A stretch of 64,000 nt of DNA from Bacteroidota bacterium. GTDB lineage: Bacteria; Bacteroidota; Bacteroidia; Bacteroidales; UBA4417. Where the stretch lies: assembly GCA_013376995.1 (NCBI GenBank), contig JACAAZ010000013.1:26654-90653 (forward strand), in the 5' to 3' direction. Within the stretch, counting starts at the first letter, position 1. Each line of letters begins with the position of its first letter. The position numbers and the translations under genes are program-made. Positions 7,462 through 29,541 of this stretch are shown here, in pieces. Below the pieces are notes generated by a model. That model ran no database searches. It was not told where the DNA came from and saw only the letters and a list, made by a program, of their open reading frames with translations.

Positions 7462-9828
7462 CTAAAAATGTATCCTGTATTGCATCATAGGGAACATTCC
7501 CAATTGATAGGTCGTCGTTATTTCATTCTTTGACTTACTGAATGATTGCATCAACGGATTCTTGTGGTTGGTGAAGTTTTCCACATAAAACTGCCACTCC
7601 TGTGAAATCTTCTTTCCATTCAGTCTATACCCGAATTTGATATCTGCCTTGAGGAATGGGTCAAATCGTGAATTAAAGGCATGCACTTCATCATATTTTG
7701 TTTCTCCTGCAATTCGGGATGCCTGAAGATCAATTGGAGTATAGAATCTTCCTCCTGCAAAGGAACTTTTGAAATCAATTGTAACAGCAGACCTGCTGCC
7801 AAATTCAAACTCTTTACCTATCAAGCAGTTGACTACATAATTGCTATTGAAAGCTGTATTTCTTTCAATTCCATCGCTTCCTGTATATTTTGACTGGAAG
7901 ATTGAAACTGTAGCCAGGTAATAATACCCCTTGTTGAAGAATCGCTCCAATGTTAGTTCCAAACCATAATTTCTTCCTTTTCCGGTATTTGCAAGGCTGT
8001 CAACAGCTCCTACACCCCATCCGGCACCTGTATTAAGAATGCTGTATGAAGATGACCTTTTTTCAACGGGAACATCAAAGAGGTTTTGATAGTATGCTTC
8101 AGCCTTTAAGCGAGTTGATTTACTGATGTTTACATCATAAGCAATAACGAACTGGTGCGATTTTGTAAATCCTAGATCTTTATTGGTCTCTACAAGGGAA
8201 TGATCGGGCATGTTTGAAGCCAGGAAGTAGGTTGACAATGCCTGTATATTGGAATGTAACCCATAGCCGGCACTGAGTTTCTGATGTTCATTAATCTGCC
8301 AGGAAGCACCAAGCCTGGGTTCAATTGCATAGGAGTTATTCAAGTCAAAATAAATGACGTGAAGTCCGGGATTAATACTTAAACGTTCAGAAAACTTATA
8401 GGTAGCTTGGTAGTATATCCTAAAGAGGTCCGTCCCGTTGGCAAGGCTTTTTTTATCACTGATCAAAGTCCTGAAACCACTGTCCGCTGAATAATACGCC
8501 TTTGTAAATAGATCATAGCCTAACCTGTCAATAGTAAAACCGGTTTTAGTTGAGAGCCGGGAATTATATTTTGTGTTCAGATATCCGCTTAATGATGTCT
8601 TGAATTCTGAAAAGTTATGATCAATGGAATTATGTGGCTTATTGTTATGATCGAGTGTGTCAATAGTGGTACCACCATTCTGAATTAGACCTGATAGTGA
8701 TAGCTTGAAATAAGAGCGGTCTCTAATAAATTTTGTCAAAGAAATCCCGCTTGCAGCCATTTTAGAGCGGTTGTAAAGATCCTGTCCCTCATCACTATAG
8801 AGATCCTGCACATTTTTCTTGCTGTCAAGCATGGCAATCTCACTTGTTCCTCCAATTCCAAAAATACTGATCTTGCCATTTTTTATTGGAAAGTTTAACT
8901 TGAAGGATAAATCCTGGTACTTTGGAATACCGGCGGTACCAATATCTATAATGTTACTCATAAGTTGCAAAGTGGAAAAGCGATAATTGACAAGGTATGA
9001 ACTTCTGTGTTTTTTGTTAAATGGGCCTTCTGCCCCGGCCTCAAATCCATTGAAACCTACCTGGAATAGTTCTTCATGGCGGTTTGAATTGCCATTTCGC
9101 AGTTTGAGATCAAAAACCCCGCTCATAGCATTGCCATACTCTGCAGGGAAAGCTCCAGTGAAAAAATCTGAATTCTGTAAAAGGTTATTGTTTAACATGC
9201 CAACAGGCCCGCCGGTCGTTCCGTTTTCGGCAAAATGATTAGGATTTGGAATATCAACATCTTCCAGCCTCCATAACAAGCCACTGGGTGAATTTCCACG
9301 TATAATTATATCATTTCGTTGATCATTGGCAGCCGCAACCCCGGCATAGTTCATAGCCATCCTTGCTACGTCACCCCTGCTACCGGCAAATTTTTCAGTC
9401 TCCTCAACAGTAAATGAACGGGCGCTTACTGTAGCCATTTTATTCATAGCTTCATCCTTTCTAGCCTCCGCAGTGATGACAACTTCTTTGCCTTGAACAA
9501 CATTTTCCGTTAAACCAATCTCCAAAACCACTTCCTGTGCTGAATTCACGATGATATTGGCAAGTGTGGCTGGCTTGTATCCAACATAGCTAACTCGTAT
9601 GCCTTGTCTGCCTATCGGAACATTCTTTAATTCAAAATTGCCATCCAGATCTGTTGTAGTTCCGATCGGTGGGTTAGTTTCAAGTAAAAGGATACTTGCA
9701 CCAGGTAAGGAAACTTTTGAATCTATATCTATTACTTTGCCCCTGATAACCTGGAATACATTGTTTTTTTGTGCTATAGAGGTAAGACCAGCTATAATCG
9801 TAACTAATAGTATGAGTATTCTTTTCAT
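7462..9828 (-). CDS. TonB-dependent outer-membrane receptor with CarboxypepD_reg-like N-terminus
   Basis: The 788-residue protein begins with a signal peptide (MKRILILLVTIIAGLTSIAQ). It continues with a carboxypeptidase-regulatory-like beta-sandwich at residues 28-115 (GKVIDIDSKVSLPGASILL), a plug domain at about 120-240 (GDVARMAMNYAGV, IIIRGNSPSG), and a long beta-barrel. It lacks the SusC signature and no SusD gene is adjacent, so it is more like an iron, cofactor or peptide receptor than a glycan importer. It lies upstream of the LytS/LytTR pair on the same strand, separated by 116 bp. The substrate is unknown. Confidence 0.9.
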   Translation of the reverse strand: MKRILILLVTIIAGLTSIAQKNNVFQVIRGKVIDIDSKVSLPGASILLLETNPPIGTTTDLDGNFELKNVPIGRQGIRVSYVGYKPATLANIIVNSAQEVVLEIGLTENVVQGKEVVITAEARKDEAMNKMATVSARSFTVEETEKFAGSRGDVARMAMNYAGVAAANDQRNDIIIRGNSPSGLLWRLEDVDIPNPNHFAENGTTGGPVGMLNNNLLQNSDFFTGAFPAEYGNAMSGVFDLKLRNGNSNRHEELFQVGFNGFEAGAEGPFNKKHRSSYLVNYRFSTLQLMSNIIDIGTAGIPKYQDLSFKLNFPIKNGKISIFGIGGTSEIAMLDSKKNVQDLYSDEGQDLYNRSKMAASGISLTKFIRDRSYFKLSLSGLIQNGGTTIDTLDHNNKPHNSIDHNFSEFKTSLSGYLNTKYNSRLSTKTGFTIDRLGYDLFTKAYYSADSGFRTLISDKKSLANGTDLFRIYYQATYKFSERLSINPGLHVIYFDLNNSYAIEPRLGASWQINEHQKLSAGYGLHSNIQALSTYFLASNMPDHSLVETNKDLGFTKSHQFVIAYDVNISKSTRLKAEAYYQNLFDVPVEKRSSSYSILNTGAGWGVGAVDSLANTGKGRNYGLELTLERFFNKGYYYLATVSIFQSKYTGSDGIERNTAFNSNYVVNCLIGKEFEFGSRSAVTIDFKSSFAGGRFYTPIDLQASRIAGETKYDEVHAFNSRFDPFLKADIKFGYRLNGKKISQEWQFYVENFTNHKNPLMQSFSKSKNEITTTYQLGMFPMMQYRIHF

Positions 9829-20077: not shown

Positions 20078-20307
20078 GTTTAGGGTTTTTATGTTATTAG
20101 ATTGAGAGTTCAGATGAAAGCATCTTAATTTACCAATTTCTATGCCACTTCATGGATAAATCCTAAGAATAAATATAGTTGAAAATTCGTAATCTATTGA
20201 GATAAGCATTACACGATTATTAATTCCTTTTGTTACACAATTGAATCACTAATAATGAAGCCTTAAATGTGAAATATTTAAGCAAGTGAATTATACTATT
20301 CCATCTT

Positions 20308-20332
20308 TTGTACGTAATATCTGCGTACAAAT
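20308..20332 (+). promoter_or_regulatory. Palindromic operator and promoter (site A) of the ATPase/Fe-S cluster
   Basis: TTTGTACG (20308-20315) and CGTACAAA (20325-20332) are perfect inverted arms separated by nine bases. An AATAGTATAA box follows directly at 20331-20340, and the first gene starts at 20360. A second, non-concentric inverted repeat, AATTATACTATT (20290-20301) with AATAGTATAATT (20331-20342), encloses it. The core TACG-N9-CGTA and the AATAGTATAA box recur at the same spacing at 28454-28483, so this is very probably a shared regulator site. Confidence 0.75.
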
Positions 20333-20359: not shown

Positions 20360-21163
20360 ATGGATATAAATCGAATAAAGGTACTAGGTGGAAAGGGCAA
20401 AGAAGGGACAAAAGAAGCCGTCGAAAGTTTCGAATTGAACATGGGAGATATCGTTTCAATCGTTGGACCTACCGGTTGCGGGAAAACAACATTGATCAAT
20501 GATATTGAGTTATTTGCCAACCAAAATACACCGTCTGGCAGACAGGTATTTATTAATGGTGAAACTGTTCCCGAGGATTTTTCCTTTGACCCGGCAAAGC
20601 ATCCAATTGCCATGATTTCTCAGCATACCAACTTCCTCAGCGATCTGCCCGTTGGTGAGTTTCTCAGCATTCATGCCAAGGTAAGAGGTGCAGAGAATAT
20701 TGAACGAATGATTGAAGAGACTCTGGATTTTGCCAACCAATTGACTGGTGAAGCTATTGTCAAAGAGACTGCTATGACTGAGCTTTCAGGTGGGCAGACA
20801 AGATCATTGCTGATTGCTGATGCCGTTGTTATTGGGAATTCTCCAATCATCCTGCTTGACGAAATCGAAAATGCAGGGATTAACAGGACCAAGGCATTAG
20901 AATTATTGAAAGGGTATAAGAAGATCTTCGTTTTCGTGACTCATGATCCATGTATTGCCTTGCTTTCTGATTTTCGTATTATCATGAAAAACGGAGCAAT
21001 GCAGCGTGTTATCTGCACAGGTGTTGAAGAGCGGATTGCCGCAACTGAAATGAAGAAAATGGATGATATCATGCTCGAATTCAGAACCCTTATCAGGTCT
21101 GGACAAGAGATTACTGAAAATATATTAAATGACAAAATGAAAATCTTAACCCAACCTTTATAA
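20360..21163 (+). CDS. Soluble ABC-type ATPase without permease partner
   Basis: The 267-residue nucleotide-binding subunit has a complete motif set: Walker A GPTGCGKT (36-43), Q-loop Gln88, signature LSGGQ (142-146), Walker B IILLDE (163-168) and H-loop His195. The D-loop reads ENAGIN in place of the usual SALD-type sequence. No transmembrane partner is encoded nearby, so it may be a soluble energy module, as SufC is for Fe-S assembly, rather than a transporter. A TTG at 20342 would add six residues; the ATG at 20360 is preferred because 20342 overlaps the promoter box. Its stop codon abuts the ATG of the next gene (TAAATG), implying tight co-translation with the GTPase. Confidence 0.85.
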   Translation: MDINRIKVLGGKGKEGTKEAVESFELNMGDIVSIVGPTGCGKTTLINDIELFANQNTPSGRQVFINGETVPEDFSFDPAKHPIAMISQHTNFLSDLPVGEFLSIHAKVRGAENIERMIEETLDFANQLTGEAIVKETAMTELSGGQTRSLLIADAVVIGNSPIILLDEIENAGINRTKALELLKGYKKIFVFVTHDPCIALLSDFRIIMKNGAMQRVICTGVEERIAATEMKKMDDIMLEFRTLIRSGQEITENILNDKMKILTQPL

Positions 21164-21865
21164 ATGAAACTTATCATATTTGCCGGACCCCCAACTTGTG
21201 GGAAGACAACCGTTATTAAGCAGGTGATCAAACGAATGATTGCCAGGGAACTGAAACCATCCTATATCAAGATAGATGTACTTTATGCTGATGAAGACGA
21301 AGTAATAAAGAACGAATTCGGAATTCCGACCAAGAAGATCTATTCCGGAGAACTCTGCCCTGACCATTGCAATGTTGTTGTGTTGGATGAAGCTGTTGAA
21401 TGGGCTCAAAAGGCAGGATCAGACTTTCTTTTTGTTGAGACCGCAGGGCTCTGCCTGCGTTGTTCTCCATATGTGGAAAATTCTCTTGGTATAGTTGTCC
21501 TTGAGGCAACCAGCGGGATGAATCTGCCAAGAAAGATTGGCCCGATGCTTACACTTGCTGATATCAGTGTAATAACTAAGATCGATCTTATCTCACAGGC
21601 TGAACGTGAGGTGTTCCGCTACAGGGTCCTCGAATCAGCTAAGGGAATTACAGTTGTTGAAAGTAATGCACTGTATGGCATTGGCATTGACCCGATCGTC
21701 AATAAGATCATTAAATCACCGGAGATTGAATTCCCTATGTTCCTCAGAGGAAATCCACCAGTGGGTACATGTACGATCTGTGTTGGGAAAAAAGAAATCG
21801 GAGCCAAAAATCATTTTGGTGTTCTGAGAACAATGGAGCACGAGCTATTTTATGTTGGTGAATAA
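21164..21865 (+). CDS. Cysteine-rich P-loop GTPase, G3E-like (CobW/HypB/UreG type)
   Basis: The 233-residue protein has Walker A GPPTCGKTT at 8-16, a VETAG element at 91-95 and a TKIDL specificity motif at 138-142, resembling the SIMIBI/G3E metallochaperone GTPases. It carries three cysteine pairs unlike the single CxCC of CobW: CPDHC (65, 69), CLRC (97, 100) and CTIC (203, 206), suggesting metal or Fe-S binding near the nucleotide. G3E proteins insert or deliver metals into enzymes; the client here is unknown. The gene starts directly after the ATPase stop codon, and 11 bp separate its end from the desulfurase start. Confidence 0.8.
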   Translation: MKLIIFAGPPTCGKTTVIKQVIKRMIARELKPSYIKIDVLYADEDEVIKNEFGIPTKKIYSGELCPDHCNVVVLDEAVEWAQKAGSDFLFVETAGLCLRCSPYVENSLGIVVLEATSGMNLPRKIGPMLTLADISVITKIDLISQAEREVFRYRVLESAKGITVVESNALYGIGIDPIVNKIIKSPEIEFPMFLRGNPPVGTCTICVGKKEIGAKNHFGVLRTMEHELFYVGE

Positions 21866-21876
21866 TCGTGATTCCG

Positions 21877-23040
21877 ATGAGTAACAGGATTTATCTTGAT
21901 AATGCAGCAACCACTCCAATGGATCCCAGGGTCTGGGAGAGCATGGAGCCCTATTTCTTCGAACACTTCGGAAATGCTTCATCCCTTCACGCTTACGGAG
22001 CCGAATCAAAATCTGCTCTTGCAAATTCAAAAAGAAGAATTGCAGATAGTATTCACGTTCAACCTGAGGAAATAATTTTCACTTCTTCAGGTACGGAAGC
22101 CAATAATCTTGCCCTTAAAGGGTTGGCATATGCAAACCAATCCAAAGGACGCCATATCATTGTTTCGGAAATTGAACACGACTGCATTCTGAATACCTGC
22201 CGATGGTTGCAGGAAACCGGGTACAGGATCAGCTATGCACCTGTCGATAGTGAAGGAATAGTGGATCCCAGTGCAATAGAGCAATTAATACAGAAGGATA
22301 CCATCCTGGTGTCAGTAATGCATGTTAATAACGAAGTTGGAACTATATAACCGATCTCTGATATAGGCCGTATTTGCAGGAAGCAGAATGTTATTTTTCA
22401 CTCAGATGCATGCCAGTCTTTTGGTAAAATTAAAATTGACTGTGAGGAACTGCAAATAGATGCCCTGACCTTGAATGCGCATAAAATATATGGTCCCAAA
22501 GGGATTGGTGCATTGTACCTGAGAAAAGGAATACAAATCACACCATTGTTGCATGGAGGAGGACAGGAGGGAGGGAAAAGATCCTCAACCGAGAATATTC
22601 CCGCAATTGTTGGGTTTGCCAGAGCTGCTGAGATTTGTATGAATGAAATGGCATCAGATTATTCAAAAGCTGTCAAACTTCGGGATCATCTTCTTCATTT
22701 CTTACAGGACAAATATTGTGATGTATATATAAACGGGAGTGCCGAGCATAGGGTACCCTATAACCTGAATTTTAGTATCCATGGGCTGGAGGGGGAAGCT
22801 ATCAGGCTACTTTTATTACTCGACGATGCAGGAATTGCTGTTTCAGCAGGATCAGCCTGTTCATCAAATGACAGATCGAATAATCCTTCCCATGTTCTGA
22901 AAGCGCTTGGTAGAAATCCCTTTGAAGCCAGAGGTGCAATCCGCGTTTCCTTTGGACGATTTAATACGTTGGAAGAAGTGGGAATATTTACCAGAAAAAT
23001 TGAAAATGTAATTGAACAACTAAATCCAATCTTTTCTTAA
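21877..23040 (+). pseudogene. NifS/IscS-like cysteine desulfurase with in-frame TAA at codon 158
   Basis: The frame encodes a PLP enzyme releasing sulfur from cysteine as a persulfide. It starts IYLDNAATTPMDPRV and keeps the PLP Lys203 in LNAHKIYGPKG, the loop Cys328 in SAGSACSS and a normal C-terminus, totalling 387 codons. The only defect is TAA at 22348-22350 in NNEVGTI-stop-PISDIG, where relatives usually have Gln (CAA or CAG), so one C-to-T change explains it. There is no frameshift and no other stop, and both halves look under normal constraint. It could be a sequencing error, a very recent mutation, or recoding; the last is unlikely since TAA ends many genes here. A GTG at 21868 is an alternative start. 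Confidence 0.85.
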
Positions 23041-23054
23041 AAATACGAGCTAAA

Positions 23055-23741
23055 ATGGACATTCTATTAGAAACCAAAACCCTGGATAAATTACCCGGTC
23101 TTGATTGTGGAGCATGCGGTTATCGCACCTGCGGTGAATTTGCTGTTGCTGTTGACCAGGTTGAAACAGAACTGAAAAAGTGCATTCATGTGACTGAGAA
23201 TAAGCAATCAAATTCTGAAAGCAAAAACTGTCTGAATTGCCTGGATATGGAAAACCTGGGTGATAAATTGAAGTGGCAGGATAGTCTGAAGCGGGAATTT
23301 GATTTCATTCTTGACGTAATGGAGGGCGATCCCGGCCCCAGGGAAACCATTCTTCCATATAATCCATTATTGGTAAAGGAACTGGGTGTAAAGCCAGGTG
23401 ATGTTATGATTGGAAGGCCAATGGGAATGTCATGCGGTTGCCCGATTACCCATTGTGGAGTTGTAACCGACGTTGACCCAAGGAATGGTGTTATAAAATG
23501 GTGCGTCACTGGTCCACTAAGGCCAAGGTCGGAAGGGTTCATTGATATAGGCTATTATGTAGCGCAGGCTTATGACGGCATTATTAAGGAATCAAAGGAA
23601 GAAATCAAATTAGGTCGTCGTTACTGGTTCCTTCCCCACAGGTGTATGTTGCAATGGCGGCACAGCGGTTTGGTAAATGCTGTTGTGAAGCAAAAGGATG
23701 GCAGTTACAAGGTGCGGATTGAAGGCCTCTTTATCGGCTAA
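23055..23741 (+). CDS. Cysteine-rich Fe-S protein with N-terminal 4Fe-4S domain (RnfB/ACDS-type)
   Basis: The 228-residue protein has LPGLDCGACGYRTCGEFA at residues 13-30 with Cys18, 21, 26 and 43, the pattern of the FeS domain (Pfam FeS, PF04060) seen in RnfB and acetyl-CoA decarbonylase subunits. A CLNC pair at 59 and 62 follows. The C-terminal half is an unfamiliar domain with a conserved-looking MSCGCPITHCG at 126-135 and Cys150 and Cys197, giving 11 cysteines in all. It lacks membrane segments. I infer an electron-transfer or cluster-scaffold role with the desulfurase, whose gene ends 14 bp upstream. The function has not been established by this reading. Confidence 0.75.
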   Translation: MDILLETKTLDKLPGLDCGACGYRTCGEFAVAVDQVETELKKCIHVTENKQSNSESKNCLNCLDMENLGDKLKWQDSLKREFDFILDVMEGDPGPRETILPYNPLLVKELGVKPGDVMIGRPMGMSCGCPITHCGVVTDVDPRNGVIKWCVTGPLRPRSEGFIDIGYYVAQAYDGIIKESKEEIKLGRRYWFLPHRCMLQWRHSGLVNAVVKQKDGSYKVRIEGLFIG

Positions 23742-23819
23742 AAGTTAAATAAACAGAAAAAGAAATCAAGACATTGTCATGCTTCAATTCGTGGTTGGAT
23801 TGATGGGGCATGCAATACA

Positions 23820-23857
23820 GTACCCGGGTCAGTTGAATTTCATCTTGACCCTGGTAC
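23820..23857 (+). terminator. Strong hairpin between Fe-S protein and serine acetyltransferase genes
   Basis: GTACCCGGGTCA and TGACCCTGGTAC form a 12-position stem with a single mismatch and a 14-base loop. The 3' side is not T-rich, so it is not a classic terminator. It may stall or process the mRNA, or act as an attenuator or leader structure for cysE. The 195 bp gap holds no gene. Confidence 0.5.
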
Positions 23858-23936
23858 TTGTTAGTCATTAAAGATTTGAACAATGCAGTAATCACGATGT
23901 TGCACTTAATGGAATGATTATTAAGCCTAAATTAAA

Positions 23937-24776
23937 ATGGATCCATTATCACAATTGCCTAAAGAGATTTTCAGAAGCTACGAACGATATAGTACAGATG
24001 TTCCTTCGGTTGAAAGCACTCACCATTTTGTCGAAGAACTCGTAATGTTCCTGTTTCCAGTTAAAGCTAACAGGACAGTATCGCTGCATTCGCTCCAGAA
24101 GGAATTACGTCATTTGAGATTCAGGCTTGAAGATCTGCTCTTTCCTTTATTCAATGGGTCCGGGCAAGAGATTGAGGGTATCGTTAATTCTTTCTTTTCG
24201 AGCCTTCCATCGGTTTATGAATTACTGCTAAATGATGCTGAGGTTTTCCTGGATTCTGACCCATCAGCAAAAAGAGTCGAAGAGATTCTCATGTCGTATC
24301 CGGGGTTTCATGCAATTACAGTTTATCGGATTGCCCATGAGTTGCAGAAATTGGATGTGCCCTTATTACCCAGGATAATGAGTGAATTCATACATGGAAA
24401 AACAGGTATTGATATTCATCCGGGAGCAATAATTGGAGAGAATTTCTTTATTGATCATGGAACCGGTGTTGTTATAGGCGAAACCTCTGAGATTGGAAAT
24501 AATGTAAAGATATACCAGGGAGTGACCCTGGGAGCACTTTTTGTTGAAAGGGCTTTGAAAGACCAGAAAAGGCATCCAACCATACAGGATGGTGTGATCA
24601 TTTATTCAGGTAGTACGATCCTGGGCGGCAAAACAGTTGTAGGGCATGATTCTATAATTGGGGGAAATGTTTGGTTGACTGAAAGTGTAGAGCCCTATTC
24701 ACTTGTTTATCACAAGCCTGAAATTGTGATCCGGGATAAGAAAGATTTTATTGAGCCGATCAACTTTTATATATAA
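23937..24776 (+). CDS. cysE: Serine O-acetyltransferase (EpsC-type)
   Basis: The enzyme acetylates serine with acetyl-CoA to O-acetylserine, the first committed step of cysteine synthesis. The 279-residue protein has an alpha-helical N-terminal domain and a left-handed hexapeptide helix at about residues 160-245. That helix includes GKTGIDIHPGAIIGENFFIDHGTG and VVIGETSEIGNNVKIYQGVTLGA, a textbook SAT active-site stretch. It is 68 bp upstream of cysK, so both cysteine-synthesis steps are adjacent. Its place beside a desulfurase suggests cysteine made here feeds sulfur to that enzyme. Confidence 0.94.
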   Translation: MDPLSQLPKEIFRSYERYSTDVPSVESTHHFVEELVMFLFPVKANRTVSLHSLQKELRHLRFRLEDLLFPLFNGSGQEIEGIVNSFFSSLPSVYELLLNDAEVFLDSDPSAKRVEEILMSYPGFHAITVYRIAHELQKLDVPLLPRIMSEFIHGKTGIDIHPGAIIGENFFIDHGTGVVIGETSEIGNNVKIYQGVTLGALFVERALKDQKRHPTIQDGVIIYSGSTILGGKTVVGHDSIIGGNVWLTESVEPYSLVYHKPEIVIRDKKDFIEPINFYI

Positions 24777-24777
24777 T

Positions 24778-24812
24778 AATTAGTTGCTAGTTATTGGTTA
24801 TTAGTTAGTTGG
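24778..24812. repeat. TAGTTATTGGTTATTAGTT intergenic repeat, copy 1
   Basis: A 19 bp string TAGTTATTGGTTATTAGTT occurs here between cysE and cysK and again at 36338-36356. Such A/T-rich direct-repeat tracts are common intergenic fillers in Bacteroidetes. The role is unknown. Confidence 0.6.
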
Positions 24813-24844
24813 AAAGTAGAGCGTCATAACTTAAATCTAAAAAT

Positions 24845-25762
24845 ATGAAAGCAAATTCAATTCTTGAGACCATTGGTAATACACCACATGTTAAGATAAA
24901 TCGATTGTTTGGATCCGATTATCAGGTATGGATTAAATTGGAACGAACCAATCCCGGTGGGAGTATTAAGGACCGTATAGCTTTGGCTATGATTGAGGAT
25001 GCAGAGAAAAAGGGCATACTTAAGGCAGATTCCGTAATAATTGAGCCTACATCGGGCAATACAGGGATTGGCCTTGCTATGGTTGCTGCAGTAAAAGGAT
25101 ATAAACTGCAATTAGTGATGCCAGAATCCATGAGTGTTGAAAGGAGAGCTTTGATGGCCGTTTATGGCGCTGAATTCGTTCTGACCCCCCGGGAAAAAGG
25201 AATGAAAGGCGCTATTGAAAAAGCGAAAGAACTTGTTGAATTAACACCAAAAGCCTGGATGCCAGGACAATTTGAGAATCCTGCCAATCCAGCTATTCAT
25301 TATGAAACAACTGCTAAAGAGATTGCCCAGGATTTCCCGGAAGGCCTGGATTACATAATTACTGGTGTTGGAACAGGAGGGCATATTACAGGAGTCGGTC
25401 GACTGCTCAAAGCCAAATGGCCGAATCTTAAGATTTTTGCAGTTGAGCCGGAACTTTCTCCCGTGCTTGGTGGAGGTTCTCCCGGACCTCACCCATTGCA
25501 AGGAATTGGTGCAGGTTTTGTCCCTGAGAATTTTGACCGTTCCGTAGTTGACGGCATAATTGCAGTATCAAAGGATAAAGCATTTGAATTCGCCAGGAGA
25601 ATTGCTAAGGAAGAAGCAATATTTGCCGGTGTTTCCACAGGTGCTTCTTTAGCAGCTGTTAGTTCAAAGCTAAGCGAAATTCCAAAGGGATCCAGGGTGC
25701 TTACCTTTAATTACGATACGGGTGAGCGTTATCTGTCCATTGATGGTTTGTGGAATAGCTGA
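24845..25762 (+). CDS. cysK: Cysteine synthase (O-acetylserine sulfhydrylase)
   Basis: This PLP enzyme combines O-acetylserine and sulfide to cysteine. The Schiff-base Lys42 lies in NPGGSIKDR, the substrate loop TSGNTG is at 69-74, and the phosphate-binding glycine stretch GTGGHITG and C-terminal GVSTGAS are present. The 305-residue length is normal for CysK/CysM. The C-terminus ([13 protein letters not shown]) matches the family. With the serine acetyltransferase upstream it gives a complete two-step pathway in one unit. Confidence 0.95.
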
Positions 25763-25846
25763 AATCCGCGTTTAACCTGATACTTCGAGTTATTAACCGG
25801 CCTGAACTTCTGATAACTTCAGCAGTTCAGGCATTGCTTTAAATAA

Positions 25847-27235
25847 ATGAGAAAGATTGCTATTGTAGGTGGTGGATTTTCCGGAATTCTCCTTGCAGTC
25901 CACCTGATAAGGAGAACTGATTCTCCTGTTGAGTTGATAATAATTGACAGGCAGCAACAGTTTTGCAAAGGAATAGCATACAATACATATTCTAAGAAGC
26001 ACATCCTGAATGTAATTGCTTCGCGCATGAGTGCATTCCAGGATCAGCCGGATCATTTCCTTGATTGGATGGAATCAAGGGTTGAATCTGATAGCCTTCC
26101 AAGATCCATCCTGGGAAATACATTTGTTCCCCGCTATCTATATGCAGAATACCTCGGAGATATATGGAATGATGCACTTCAGCTAGCAAGTAAGAAAGGA
26201 ATCAGGCTTGGGATCCTTGATTCTTTTGTTTCTGATCTCACATCGGTAAACGGGGAAATTAATCTCCATCTCGAGAACAATGAAATCATAAATGTTGATT
26301 ATTGTGTCCTTGCTACAGGAAACAGGCTACCTGCACAACTGCCTTTTGATCCAGATTCAATTGCTAAAAGTGGAAATTATTTCCCGGACCCCTGGAACGA
26401 AGATGTTGTGAATTCATGTTTGGATGCAAGGCACATTGCTATTGCCGGGAATGGTTTGACCATGGTGGATACTGTGCTTGGGCTTAAGGAGGCTGGTTAT
26501 AAAGGTGTGATCTTCACAATTTCGCCAAACGGATACAATTTGTTGCCCCACAGGCATATTGGAGTAAGATATGAATTGAACCAGGAGCAACTTAATAAAT
26601 GTAAGACCTTAGCAGAGCACTTAAACTTCTTCAACAGGCATTTCAGGAGGTTAAAAAAAGCAGGGTTTACTTCAGAACCACTTATCGAAGCCTTGAGGCC
26701 ATTCACCCAGGAGATCTGGATGAAGCTAAACGAAGCTGAAAAAGTTATTTTTTTAGAAAAACTTAAGTCTAAATGGGATGTTGGCAGGCATAGGATACCT
26801 GCTCATATACACGATCAGATCCAGATACTTCGGGAATCAAAGCAATTTGTTCCTTACAAGGGCGTAATAAGCAATATAAAGCCATCAGAAAAGGGTATTG
26901 AAATCCATATCAGGCATAAACATCATAACAAGATCCTGCATGTCTCTAAAGTAATCAACTGTACCGGGCCATCATCAAGGATTAATCCGGATGGAGATGG
27001 ATTGCTTTCAAAATGTCTTAAGAAAGGAATTCTTACCCAGGATTTTCAGTTTCTCGGCATTCAAACAGATGTTGACACTTACAATGTTATCAACTCCGAA
27101 GGTTTAAGGAATGAAAGGTTATTCACCTTAGGCCCGACACTTAAGGGTGAACTTTGGGAGAGCATTGCAGTTAACGAACTAAGGGTGCAAGCAGAAAAAT
27201 TGGCAGTGATATTAGTAAAACGCCTGGACCCCTGA
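25847..27235 (+). CDS. FAD/NAD(P)-binding protein, COG4529/YdhS-like
   Basis: The 462-residue flavoprotein starts with a Rossmann fold KIAIVGGGFSGILLAVHL (GxGxxG-type), followed by ILNVIASRMSAFQDQPDHFLDWM, the pattern of the COG4529 proteins. A second dinucleotide site IAIAGNGLTMVDTVLGLK and an ATGNRLP motif complete it. The family is poorly characterised and its substrate is unknown. It is 84 bp after cysK on the same strand and ends 17 bp before the convergent Rrf2 gene. It could act as an electron donor for the Fe-S protein of this cluster; that is inference. Confidence 0.82.
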   Translation: MRKIAIVGGGFSGILLAVHLIRRTDSPVELIIIDRQQQFCKGIAYNTYSKKHILNVIASRMSAFQDQPDHFLDWMESRVESDSLPRSILGNTFVPRYLYAEYLGDIWNDALQLASKKGIRLGILDSFVSDLTSVNGEINLHLENNEIINVDYCVLATGNRLPAQLPFDPDSIAKSGNYFPDPWNEDVVNSCLDARHIAIAGNGLTMVDTVLGLKEAGYKGVIFTISPNGYNLLPHRHIGVRYELNQEQLNKCKTLAEHLNFFNRHFRRLKKAGFTSEPLIEALRPFTQEIWMKLNEAEKVIFLEKLKSKWDVGRHRIPAHIHDQIQILRESKQFVPYKGVISNIKPSEKGIEIHIRHKHHNKILHVSKVINCTGPSSRINPDGDGLLSKCLKKGILTQDFQFLGIQTDVDTYNVINSEGLRNERLFTLGPTLKGELWESIAVNELRVQAEKLAVILVKRLDP

Positions 27236-27252: not shown

Positions 27253-27663
27253 CTAGCTGATCAGGTCAAGCAAAGTTGTTTGCTGTAGCTTCATATAAGT
27301 ATAATCACGGATATCCTTGAAAACCTTTTTCATATTGCAGGTGTCCTCGTCTTTGCAAAACTCGCAGGGTTGATATGCCTTTTCTGATACACAGGAAACC
27401 AGAGCAATTGGACCTTCGAAGTGGCGCACCACCTGGGAAAGGTTAATGTCTTCCGGCTTACGGATCAGGTAGTAACCGCCGTTTTTTCCCAATTTACTGC
27501 CCAACATTCCCAGTTTCTTAAGATCCAGCAATATAGCTTCCAGGTATCGCTGAGGGATATTTTCTGTTTTGGCTATTTCACTGATCATGATCGCTCCATT
27601 CCCAACTTCTTTGGCAAGTCGTGTAAGCGCGAGCATTGCGTATCTTGTTTTTTGCGATAACAT
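27253..27663 (-). CDS. Rrf2-family transcriptional regulator with four cysteines
   Basis: The 136-residue protein has a winged-helix N-terminus (SQKTRYAMLALTRLA, ISEIAKTENIPQRYLEAILLDLKKLGMLGSKLG) typical of IscR, CymR and NsrR. The C-terminal region carries Cys91, 100, 103 and 109 (SCVSEKAYQPCEFCKDEDTC). IscR uses three cysteines to hold a 2Fe-2S cluster; four here in a different spacing suggest an Fe-S cluster or thiol sensor. It is probably co-transcribed with the FNR-like gene 22 bp upstream and convergent with the sulfur/Fe-S genes. I infer that it controls the neighbouring units. Confidence 0.9.
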   Translation of the reverse strand: MLSQKTRYAMLALTRLAKEVGNGAIMISEIAKTENIPQRYLEAILLDLKKLGMLGSKLGKNGGYYLIRKPEDINLSQVVRHFEGPIALVSCVSEKAYQPCEFCKDEDTCNMKKVFKDIRDYTYMKLQQTTLLDLIS

Positions 27664-27685: not shown

Positions 27686-28384
27686 TTATCCGTGTTTACT
27701 GATTTCCAGAAGTTTGTTTACATCACATATCTCAAGTGTTTTGCCTTCAAAAGAGATTATTCCTTCCTTATTCATGCGGGATAAGGTGGTTATTACATTT
27801 TCATGAGAACAGGCAGCAAATTCAGCAATTTCTTTCTTGGTGAAAGAGAGGGTGAATTTGTTGGATTTGTATACCTGGGAGGCAAGGTAAAGTAAGATAT
27901 CGGCCACCCGGCCGTTTACCTGCTTATGTGCAAGGCTGATGAAGTTAAAGATTGCGGATTTGAACATTTCCGTGGATTCCTCAAACATCATAATTGCATA
28001 TTTTCCGTTGTTTTGCAGAAGACGCTTCATTGCCTTACTATCGATCAGGCAGGCTTCACATTCTTCTAATGCTATCAAAGAGAAGAGATTCACTTCTTTA
28101 AAAAACAAGTTTGCTCCACCTAATAATATGGGGCCGGAGACGATAGTAAGAATTACACTCTTTCCGGCTTCACTCTCAAAGTTGAACTTCACTATACCTT
28201 TGTGAAGATACACCAGGGTGGATGCTTTAGCTCCCTGCTTCAGGATTGTTTCCCCTTTTTTAAAAAGAAGCTGTTGTGAAGTCCTTCTTACCAGCTCAAA
28301 TTCTTCAGGAGCTATATGGCGGCAACTCATTGTTCTAAAAGTACATGCGTTGCAATCGTAGCGGCTGTGACGGCTATCTGACAT
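27686..28384 (-). CDS. Crp/Fnr-family regulator with FNR-like cysteine cluster
   Basis: The 232-residue protein has a cyclic-nucleotide-type beta-roll (residues about 35-125) and a C-terminal helix-turn-helix (TKKEIAEFAACSHENVITTLSRM). Its N-terminus has Cys11, Cys14 and Cys21 (CNACTFRTMSCRH), close to E. coli FNR C20-x2-C23-x5-C29, and an internal pair Cys109/Cys112 (EECEACLID) where FNR has its fourth ligand. This is the layout of an oxygen-sensitive 4Fe-4S regulator. It lies at the divergent promoter of the PstS-like gene, with the palindrome at 28454 about 70 bp from its start, and is followed by the Rrf2 gene. Confidence 0.87.
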   Translation of the reverse strand: MSDSRHSRYDCNACTFRTMSCRHIAPEEFELVRRTSQQLLFKKGETILKQGAKASTLVYLHKGIVKFNFESEAGKSVILTIVSGPILLGGANLFFKEVNLFSLIALEECEACLIDSKAMKRLLQNNGKYAIMMFEESTEMFKSAIFNFISLAHKQVNGRVADILLYLASQVYKSNKFTLSFTKKEIAEFAACSHENVITTLSRMNKEGIISFEGKTLEICDVNKLLEISKHG

Positions 28385-28587: not shown

Positions 28588-29541
28588 ATGAAAAAGTCAA
28601 TCGGGATCATCAGCATCCTTATGATTGCATTTGTCGCTATGATCCTCATTCCGACCGGATGCAAACAACAACCTCAAAAAGATACGATTTCCATTTCCGG
28701 GGCCTTTGCGCTCTATCCTTTAACTGTTAAATGGGCAGAAGAATACCAGAAGATACACCCGGAGGTCCGGATTGACGTATCTGCTGGCGGAGCCGGCAAG
28801 GGTATGACGGATGTGCTTTCCGGTATGGTTGACCTGGCTATGTTCTCAAGATCTGTTTCTCCTGAAGAAACATCAAAAGGTGCCTGGTCTGTTTCCGTTT
28901 CCAGGGATGCTGTGCTACCAATGATCAACGCTGCAAATCCACATTTAGCCCTGTTAAAAGAAAGAGGAATCAAGCAGTCGGAGTTTGTCGATATATTCAT
29001 TAATAAAAAGTTCACCACCTGGAATCAGCTACTGGGGAATAAGGGCAATGAAAAACTGAATGTGTTTACCCGTTCTGATGCCTGCGGTGCGGCTGAAATG
29101 TGGGGCAAATACCTGGGTAAAAACCAGGAAAGTATAGAAGGCGTAGGTGTATTTGGTGATCCGGGAATGGCTGATGCTGTTAAGAAAGATGCCCTGGGCC
29201 TGGGATATAATAATGTTATCTATGCTTATGATATAAAATCGAGGAAGACCTACCCCGGTCTTGATGTGCTGCCGATTGACATCAACAGCAATGGCAAGAT
29301 AGATCCTGAAGAAAACTTCTATTCCAGCCTTGATTCAGTCATGAGCGCTATTCGCGACCGCAGGTATCCATCTCCCCCTGCCCGTGACCTTTTCCTTATC
29401 TCAAAAGGGAAACCTGAAAAGAAATCCGTAACGGCTTTCCTTGAATGGATATTGACAGATGGTCAGAAATATGTGAACGATGCAGGATATGTTCAGCTTA
29501 AACCTGAACAGATTGAAACTGAAAAATCCAAGCTAAAGTAA
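28588..29541 (+). CDS. PstS-like substrate-binding lipoprotein
   Basis: The 317-residue protein has a signal peptide ending in a lipobox (ILIPTGC) and a periplasmic-binding fold of the PstS type (PBP_like_2): SGAFALYPLTVKWAEEY, DVSAGGAGKGMTDVLSGMVDLAMFSR, NVFTRSDACGAAEMWGKYLG. No PstC, PstA or PstB gene is adjacent; a porin follows 28 bp later instead. The ligand could be phosphate or another oxyanion such as sulfate, and the shared operator with the cysteine/Fe-S unit makes the second worth considering. Residues in the SRSVS and RSDACGAAE loops would contact the ligand. Confidence 0.88.
   Translation: MKKSIGIISILMIAFVAMILIPTGCKQQPQKDTISISGAFALYPLTVKWAEEYQKIHPEVRIDVSAGGAGKGMTDVLSGMVDLAMFSRSVSPEETSKGAWSVSVSRDAVLPMINAANPHLALLKERGIKQSEFVDIFINKKFTTWNQLLGNKGNEKLNVFTRSDACGAAEMWGKYLGKNQESIEGVGVFGDPGMADAVKKDALGLGYNNVIYAYDIKSRKTYPGLDVLPIDINSNGKIDPEENFYSSLDSVMSAIRDRRYPSPPARDLFLISKGKPEKKSVTAFLEWILTDGQKYVNDAGYVQLKPEQIETEKSKLK

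Follow-up and report, generated by a model that had tools for sequence, protein, structure and literature searches.

The stretch of DNA analysed here (the window) comprises 64,000 nucleotides of contig JACAAZ010000013.1 (positions 26,654 to 90,653, forward strand) from a Bacteroidales genome of the GTDB group UBA4417 (GenBank assembly GCA_013376995.1). It carries a cassette of seven adjacent genes, three of which, encoding an ATP-binding cassette (ABC) ATPase, a GTPase and an iron–sulfur (Fe-S) protein, make up a unit, hereafter the trio, that recurs in the same order in distant anaerobic bacteria and archaea. A first-pass annotation, made from the sequence alone, had placed these seven genes on one strand and read them as a self-contained maturation or sulfur-delivery machine. 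All seven are present on the plus strand with the boundaries that it gave, and the domains that it named are matched (Table 1).

Table 1. Genes and other features of the cassette and its flanks, in window coordinates
Feature	Position	Strand	Best support
Perfect dyad upstream of the ATPase gene	20307..20331	.	TTTGTACG-N9-CGTACAAA, within a wider inverted repeat
ABC-type ATPase, 267 amino acids, soluble, first gene of the trio	20360..21163	+	Pfam ABC_tran, 63.8 bits
SIMIBI-class GTPase, 233 amino acids, predicted HypB/UreG fold	21164..21865	+	cobW/HypB/UreG (cobW), 42.6 bits
nifS-type cysteine desulfurase, split by an in-frame TAA	21868..23040	+	NifS, 193 and 195 bits (halves)
Fe-S protein, 228 amino acids	23055..23741	+	PF04060, 43.5 bits (gathering score 23)
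Serine O-acetyltransferase, CysE/EpsC type	23937..24776	+	EpsC, 154.3 bits (cut-off 150)
Cysteine synthase CysK	24845..25762	+	TIGR01139, 404.7 bits (cut-off 351)
FAD/NAD(P)-binding protein PF13454, optional partner	25847..27235	+	119.4 bits
Rrf2-family regulator, CymR/IscR-like	27253..27663	-	Rrf2, 118.1 bits; CymR 75.1 and IscR 68.3, both under cut-off
CRP/FNR-family regulator	27686..28384	-	HTH_Crp_2, 51.1 bits
Pst-like substrate-binding lipoprotein, possible oxyanion uptake partner	28588..29541	+	TIGR02136, 108.7 bits, under cut-off

Gene order and distribution of the trio

The order ABC ATPase, GTPase, Fe-S protein on one strand is kept in 82 of the 84 loci that could be tested, namely those with at least 4.2 kb of upstream sequence. 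The exceptions are L135, whose ATPase frame is broken, and L089, where neither of the other two genes lies nearby; at 8810–10684 of L089 a NifS and an Fe-S gene stand together without them, the clearest departure from the arrangement. Permease-like genes are nearly absent from the vicinity, with only 2 of the 73 same-strand genes that adjoin the trio having at least four predicted membrane segments; the ATPase of the window likewise has no membrane protein gene beside it. The first-pass annotation had named a usual permease partner, or co-occurrence confined to the genus, as grounds for giving up the machine hypothesis; neither pattern was found, and the ATPase, GTPase and Fe-S genes stay together far outside the genus in both bacteria and archaea, with or without nifS, cysE and cysK.

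A scan of GTDB genomes returned 173 relatives of the Fe-S protein, whose gene is preceded in the loci found by those of the ATPase and GTPase. The best 80 of these belong to Bacteroidales, Omnitrophota, Planctomycetota, Hydrogenedentes, Acidobacteria (Bryobacterales), Myxococcota, Syntrophaceae, Clostridiaceae, Schekmanbacteria, Thermoplasmata, Micrarchaeota and Freyarchaeota, and the lineages with the trio include Bacteroidales, Omnitrophota, Planctomycetota, Desulfobacterota, Firmicutes, Myxococcota and several archaea. Within lineages the distribution is patchy. A full-length Fe-S protein occurs in 5 of 80 genomes of the close-relative set, the window's own included, and among 297 sampled genomes of the phylum only the window's own had more than short matches to the N-terminal part. 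In the phylum to which the Clostridiaceae locus belongs, profile searches matched 25 of 399 genomes; for the phylum of the Syntrophaceae locus the figure was 4 of 345, and for one archaeal phylum 6 of 243. Of the Firmicutes matches, 24 are a diverged form, type II, in which the trio stands bare and the Fe-S protein is 29–36% identical. NifS lies near the trio in 49 loci, all of type I, and is missing from the Firmicutes and archaeal type II loci. In a tree of concatenated ATPase and GTPase sequences, archaea and bacteria are intermixed within type I, Bacteroidales form one clade beside Syntrophaceae, and Firmicutes group with the methanogen-like loci L200 and L203. To judge from these sequences, the trio is probably an old unit that has been transferred horizontally.

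A similar set of genes has been seen before. The legend of Fig. 2 in Chadwick et al. (PMC12068725) lists genes for an ATPase, a 'Ni2+ binding GTPase' and a COG2000 Fe-S protein beside coenzyme M (CoM) genes in methanogens, their role being given as unknown. These are the same three kinds of gene, and loci L200, L203 and L204 share the CoM biosynthesis setting; the equation rests on gene kinds and this context, the COG2000 label being that of the paper. The account in that legend concerns methanogens, whereas the loci collected here extend to many bacterial phyla and involve cysteine and methionine genes, NifS and Rrf2. Our literature searches on the gene combination found only this paper, and further descriptions may exist, as subscription papers were mostly outside the search. 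The trio can thus be called almost undescribed, in that no role was assigned to it in that legend, although it had been mentioned.

Properties of the three proteins

The ATPase carries Walker A, LSGGQ signature and Walker B motifs in an alignment of 39 sequences. The best PDB matches of its profile are transporter ATPases; SufC was absent from the best 60 PDB and the best 25 NCBIfam matches, no direct comparison with SufC having been run. Like SufC, the trio ATPase is soluble and permease-free, with a desulfurase nearby in type I, but the locus differs from SUF in having no SufB or SufD, as had been noted at the outset. In the window genome, a sufB-sufC-sufD cluster is found on contig C20 and the cassette on contig C5, so that the cassette is not the general route of Fe-S assembly.

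The GTPase is predicted to adopt a nickel-chaperone fold. Its AlphaFold model (mean predicted local distance difference test score, pLDDT, 84.9) has only UreG and HypB among the top six Foldseek hits, and the best PDB folds are UreG and nickel- or zinc-bound HypB (4hi0, 4lps, 2hf8, 5xkt; E 1e-8 to 1e-10). The protein falls well under the curated cut-offs of both families (HypB, 46.7 versus 121.2; UreG, 32.7 versus 204.2) and also weakly matches an NCBIfam CobW-related selenoprotein (28 bits). The three cysteine pairs counted in the first reading (CxxxC, CxxC and CxxC) are there, and residues C65, H68, C97, C100, C203 and C206 are invariant in 23 sequences of types I and II, a span that reaches from Bacteroidales to the archaeal copy that has diverged most. 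The likeness to HypB and UreG thus lies in the SIMIBI fold and in Cys/His residues within the G domain. The trio GTPase differs in an extra CxxC pair in its C-terminal part, and neither hydrogenase nor urease is among the recurrent neighbours of the trio (the whole genome was not searched for either).

The Fe-S protein, with exactly the 11 cysteines first counted, combines an N-terminal 4Fe-4S domain with a C-terminal domain that the model (pLDDT 83.5) shows as largely beta. The N-terminal part had been called RnfB-type; it is indeed a four-cysteine PF04060 domain, but its closer relative is the large subunit of the corrinoid/Fe-S protein (E 1.2e-6), RnfB being more distant, and the likeness to either ends there, since the remainder of the protein is unrelated to them. 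No other convincing Pfam domain was found in any of 37 members, a PDB fold search with the C-terminal domain gave no match at E ≤ 0.001, and a search for solved homologues gave matches to the N-terminal domain only. This C-terminal domain is strongly conserved from bacteria to archaea. The four N-terminal cysteines and C129, H133, C197 and H203 are invariant in 23 sequences, and we infer that the latter four form a metal site. A separate family of proteins of about 660–690 amino acids, with a region like the N-terminal 4Fe-4S domain, occurs in L002–L015 and other Bacteroidota loci.

Sulfur genes, companions and regulation

Genes for CysK, MetY and CysE are concentrated around the trio. Thirty lie within 6 kb of the GTPase gene, in 18 loci, versus 2–3.5 expected if a genome is assumed to hold 6–10 such genes, an excess of about tenfold. 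The density of sulfur genes peaks at 0.10 per kb at a distance of 2–4 kb and falls to a single gene in 163 kb at 8–10 kb, and sulfur genes near the GTPase are on the same strand in 69 cases and on the opposite strand in 16. Among 112 loci, 44 have a sulfur gene in the available sequence, CysE being found in 8 and CysK in 16. With these frequencies, the lack of NifS in type II and the interrupted nifS of the window, the fixed seven-gene path from serine to persulfide that was first proposed is not supported.

The sulfur genes involved vary among lineages. In Omnitrophota, L109 has MetQ, Rrf2 and the trio with NifS, followed by MetY and CysK. Elsewhere CysC-CysD-CysN follows the trio (L107), ATP sulfurylase stands beside it (L108), a sulfate-binding protein comes after it (L119; 540 bits) or an S-box riboswitch, metY and metA precede it (L182). 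In Firmicutes, ComA and ComB are encoded upstream of the trio in L174 and L184, and ComA is found in L175 and L178. CysK and MetY use free sulfide; ComA uses sulfite and is not homologous to cysteate synthase. The order in L204 is cysteate synthase-ABC-GTPase-FeS-ComD-ComE, and L200 and L203 join the trio to methanogenesis marker 16 (CoM synthase, COG1900-type), cysteate synthase, ComDE and a UPF0280-type protein, the CoM context of L203 being derived from tblastn. Sulfite is also the substrate of cysteate synthase (PMC12713407). The sulfur link of the trio that the first reading drew from one locus is thereby supported by independent neighbourhoods. The UPF0280-type protein (12538–13239 in L200) adjoins cysteate synthase, ComDE and the trio in both L200 and L203; by analogy it is possibly a sulfur-trafficking partner like MA1715, which is reportedly a sulfur carrier to L-ASST.

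Candidate clients encoded elsewhere were sought in 80 genomes, some having the trio and others lacking it, through HydG, siroheme reductase (PF01077), HcyBio and adenosine 5'-phosphosulfate (APS) reductase, absences in draft genomes being weak evidence. None is a universal companion of the trio. Among Firmicutes, trio-bearing genomes show a weak enrichment of HcyBio (17/24 versus 5/16, p=0.02), but COG1900/HcyBio was rejected as an obligate client because it is absent from the five trio-bearing Bacteroidales tested. Siroheme sulfite reductase was likewise rejected, its association with the trio not being significant. Four Bacteroidales (G000, G297, G333 and G317) have an APS reductase and no siroheme reductase match. 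The assimilatory APS reductase gene of G000 lies on contig C1 at 153386–153967 (L214, L215). This pattern of APS reductase without a PF01077 match is seen in the window genome and in most tested genomes of the same genus, whether or not they have the trio. Four Firmicutes with ComA and the trio (G856, G912, G1010 and G1077) match neither APS reductase nor PF01077. The gene of a HydE-type radical S-adenosylmethionine protein lies within the cassette or adjoins it in L087, L095 (8872–9984; 335 bits, cut-off 254.6), L096 and L101, and on the opposite strand in L128.

The nifS gene of the window is open only in two halves, parted by an in-frame TAA at 22348–22350 (NNEVGTI-stop-PIS). The stop position holds Gln or Glu in 61 of the 63 other aligned sequences, and the gene is mostly intact in relatives. 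Identity to the closest relative is similar before (63%) and after (65%) the stop, which argues for a recent change or an assembly error. The NifS of the window may be inactive, so that this strain cannot be assumed to obtain sulfur through it.

A common operator for the cassette had also been proposed. It was rejected, together with the regulon built on it, since the dyad is a single site upstream of the ATPase gene, a second copy having been found in neither the window nor the genome at the search stringency used. Related dyads (e.g. TGTACACTAAAATGGTGAACATAGTGTATA) occupy the same place upstream of the ATPase gene in many Bacteroidales loci. Many relatives have an Rrf2 gene beside the cassette, a CRP/FNR-family gene is adjacent in most Bacteroidales loci, and the dyad is probably an operator of these adjacent regulators, to which Rrf2 or CRP would bind. 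A riboswitch search found none directly on the trio; the S-box of L182 lies upstream of metY-metA-trio. In L173 (4138–4302) and L179 (7030–7193), cobalamin riboswitches were noted immediately upstream of the type II trio but on the other strand.

Among the flanking genes, the FAD protein has homologues after the Fe-S gene in L066, L068, L071 and L074, and homologues of the Pst-like binding protein lie close to the cassette in L059, L075, L099 and L104. A similar Pst-like set is found between cysK and the APS reductase gene in G317, and L217 (2182–7597) has a row of cysK, a Pst-like binding protein related to that of the window, two permeases, an ATPase and APS reductase. The L217 transporter possibly serves sulfate; family scores point to the phosphate type.

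A proposed role in anaerobic sulfur assimilation

Gene order, conservation, the near-absence of a permease, the invariant residues, the sulfur neighbourhoods and the predicted GTPase fold lead us to propose, with a probability of roughly 45%, that the trio is the core of an anaerobic sulfur-assimilation module in which the Fe-S protein acts as a metalloenzyme or sulfur carrier and has an ATPase and a GTPase of its own to service it. The Fe-S protein would be the working unit, its N-terminal 4Fe-4S cluster handling electrons and its novel C-terminal domain holding a second metal or cluster site at C129, H133, C197 and H203. The GTPase, as a relative of nickel chaperones, would load or activate this second site, and the soluble ATPase would drive the activation step mechanically. 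CooC, HypB and SufC are nucleotide hydrolases that drive the maturation of other metalloproteins in a comparable way. The product may be an inorganic sulfur species, sulfide or sulfite, that is passed to the enzymes encoded next door, which would be CysK or MetY in the window and other type I loci; in type II and methanogen-like loci the recipient would be ComA or cysteate synthase. In the window, NifS would feed in sulfur from cysteine, and CysE and CysK would be part of one regulon with it, controlled by Rrf2/CRP. The trio of Firmicutes stands bare and needs no linked client, and the client is therefore most simply sought inside the trio. Of the self-contained machine first envisaged, a conserved, permease-free and sulfur-linked trio survives; a fixed seven-gene set and a shared operator do not.

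Several observations weigh against this proposal. The partners differ, type I loci having sulfide users and type II loci often sulfite users, and a single product is therefore not established. About 60% of the loci have no sulfur gene in the available sequence, many of them ending at contig ends. The query genes of the neighbour survey were partly chosen from these same loci, so that independence from this choice can reasonably be claimed only for the CysK/MetY/CysE count and the distance decay. No significant association was obtained with siroheme reductase (12 of 43 genomes with the trio versus 6 of 37 without, p=0.29) or with HydG (20/43 versus 22/37, p=0.27).

The strongest competitor, though unlikely in our view, is a scaffold-type machine that builds a metal–sulfur cluster from NifS sulfur and delivers it to a client encoded elsewhere. 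The placement of NifS inside so many type I cassettes, the adjacent Rrf2 regulator of IscR/CymR type, the HypB/UreG-like GTPase and the HydE genes within four cassettes would all suit such a machine. The Firmicutes and archaeal type II loci, by contrast, lack both NifS and a shared linked client; HydG, NIR_SIR and APS reductase do not track the trio, HcyBio being weakly enriched in Firmicutes; and the genome already has a housekeeping SUF system.

A narrower idea, which we hold to be somewhat less likely still, is that the trio constitutes a siroheme-free, nucleotide-dependent system for sulfite/sulfide interconversion. Such an enzyme would suit the sulfide demand of CysK and MetY as well as the sulfite demand of ComA and cysteate synthase. 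Sulfite would be reduced for CysK/MetY in Bacteroidales, four genomes of which have the APS reductase and no siroheme reductase match noted above, and the reverse reaction would supply sulfite to ComA in the four ComA-bearing Firmicutes and to cysteate synthase in the methanogen-like archaea. The weakness here is that close Bacteroidales without the trio share the pattern of APS reductase without siroheme reductase.

It is improbable that the trio serves as a sulfur-trafficking relay, carrying persulfide or sulfide to CysK, MetY and COG1900 proteins in the manner of MA1715. The COG1900-type and UPF0280-type proteins adjoining the trio in L200 and L203, NifS in type I and the partners that use sulfide would be consistent with such a relay. 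Sulfite users are also among the partners, two nucleotide hydrolases are unusual for a carrier, and CysK and MetY accept free sulfide, for which no carrier is needed. There is a slim chance that the sulfur neighbours are incidental and that the trio has another function in strict anaerobes. Most Firmicutes loci do lack a sulfur neighbour, but the distance decay, the strand bias and the fact that several lineages independently pair the trio with non-homologous sulfur genes argue otherwise. It is highly improbable that the ATPase, as its transporter-like PDB matches might suggest, belongs to a transporter encoded elsewhere, the GTPase and Fe-S protein being unrelated passengers, given that 71 of 73 adjacent genes are not permease-like and that the three-gene order is fixed in bacteria and archaea. 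A role as an accessory of hydrogenase (H-cluster) maturation, suggested by HydE in some cassettes such as that of L095, is equally hard to credit, since 23 of 43 genomes with the trio have no HydG match above the family cut-off and HydG is no commoner with the trio than without it.

A conserved unit that extends from Bacteroidales to archaea, is tied to sulfur assimilation and includes a domain without known relatives suggests that a step of anaerobic sulfur metabolism is still missing from the known pathways. Through it, unexplained genes beside CoM synthesis in methanogens are connected with the bacterial synthesis of cysteine and methionine. Where related archaea get their sulfite is described as unclear (PMC6286981), and sulfite/sulfide interconversion by the trio, if true, would explain this source for CoM. 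The trio thus bears both on where methanogens obtain sulfite and on how sulfite is handled in anaerobes without siroheme enzymes.

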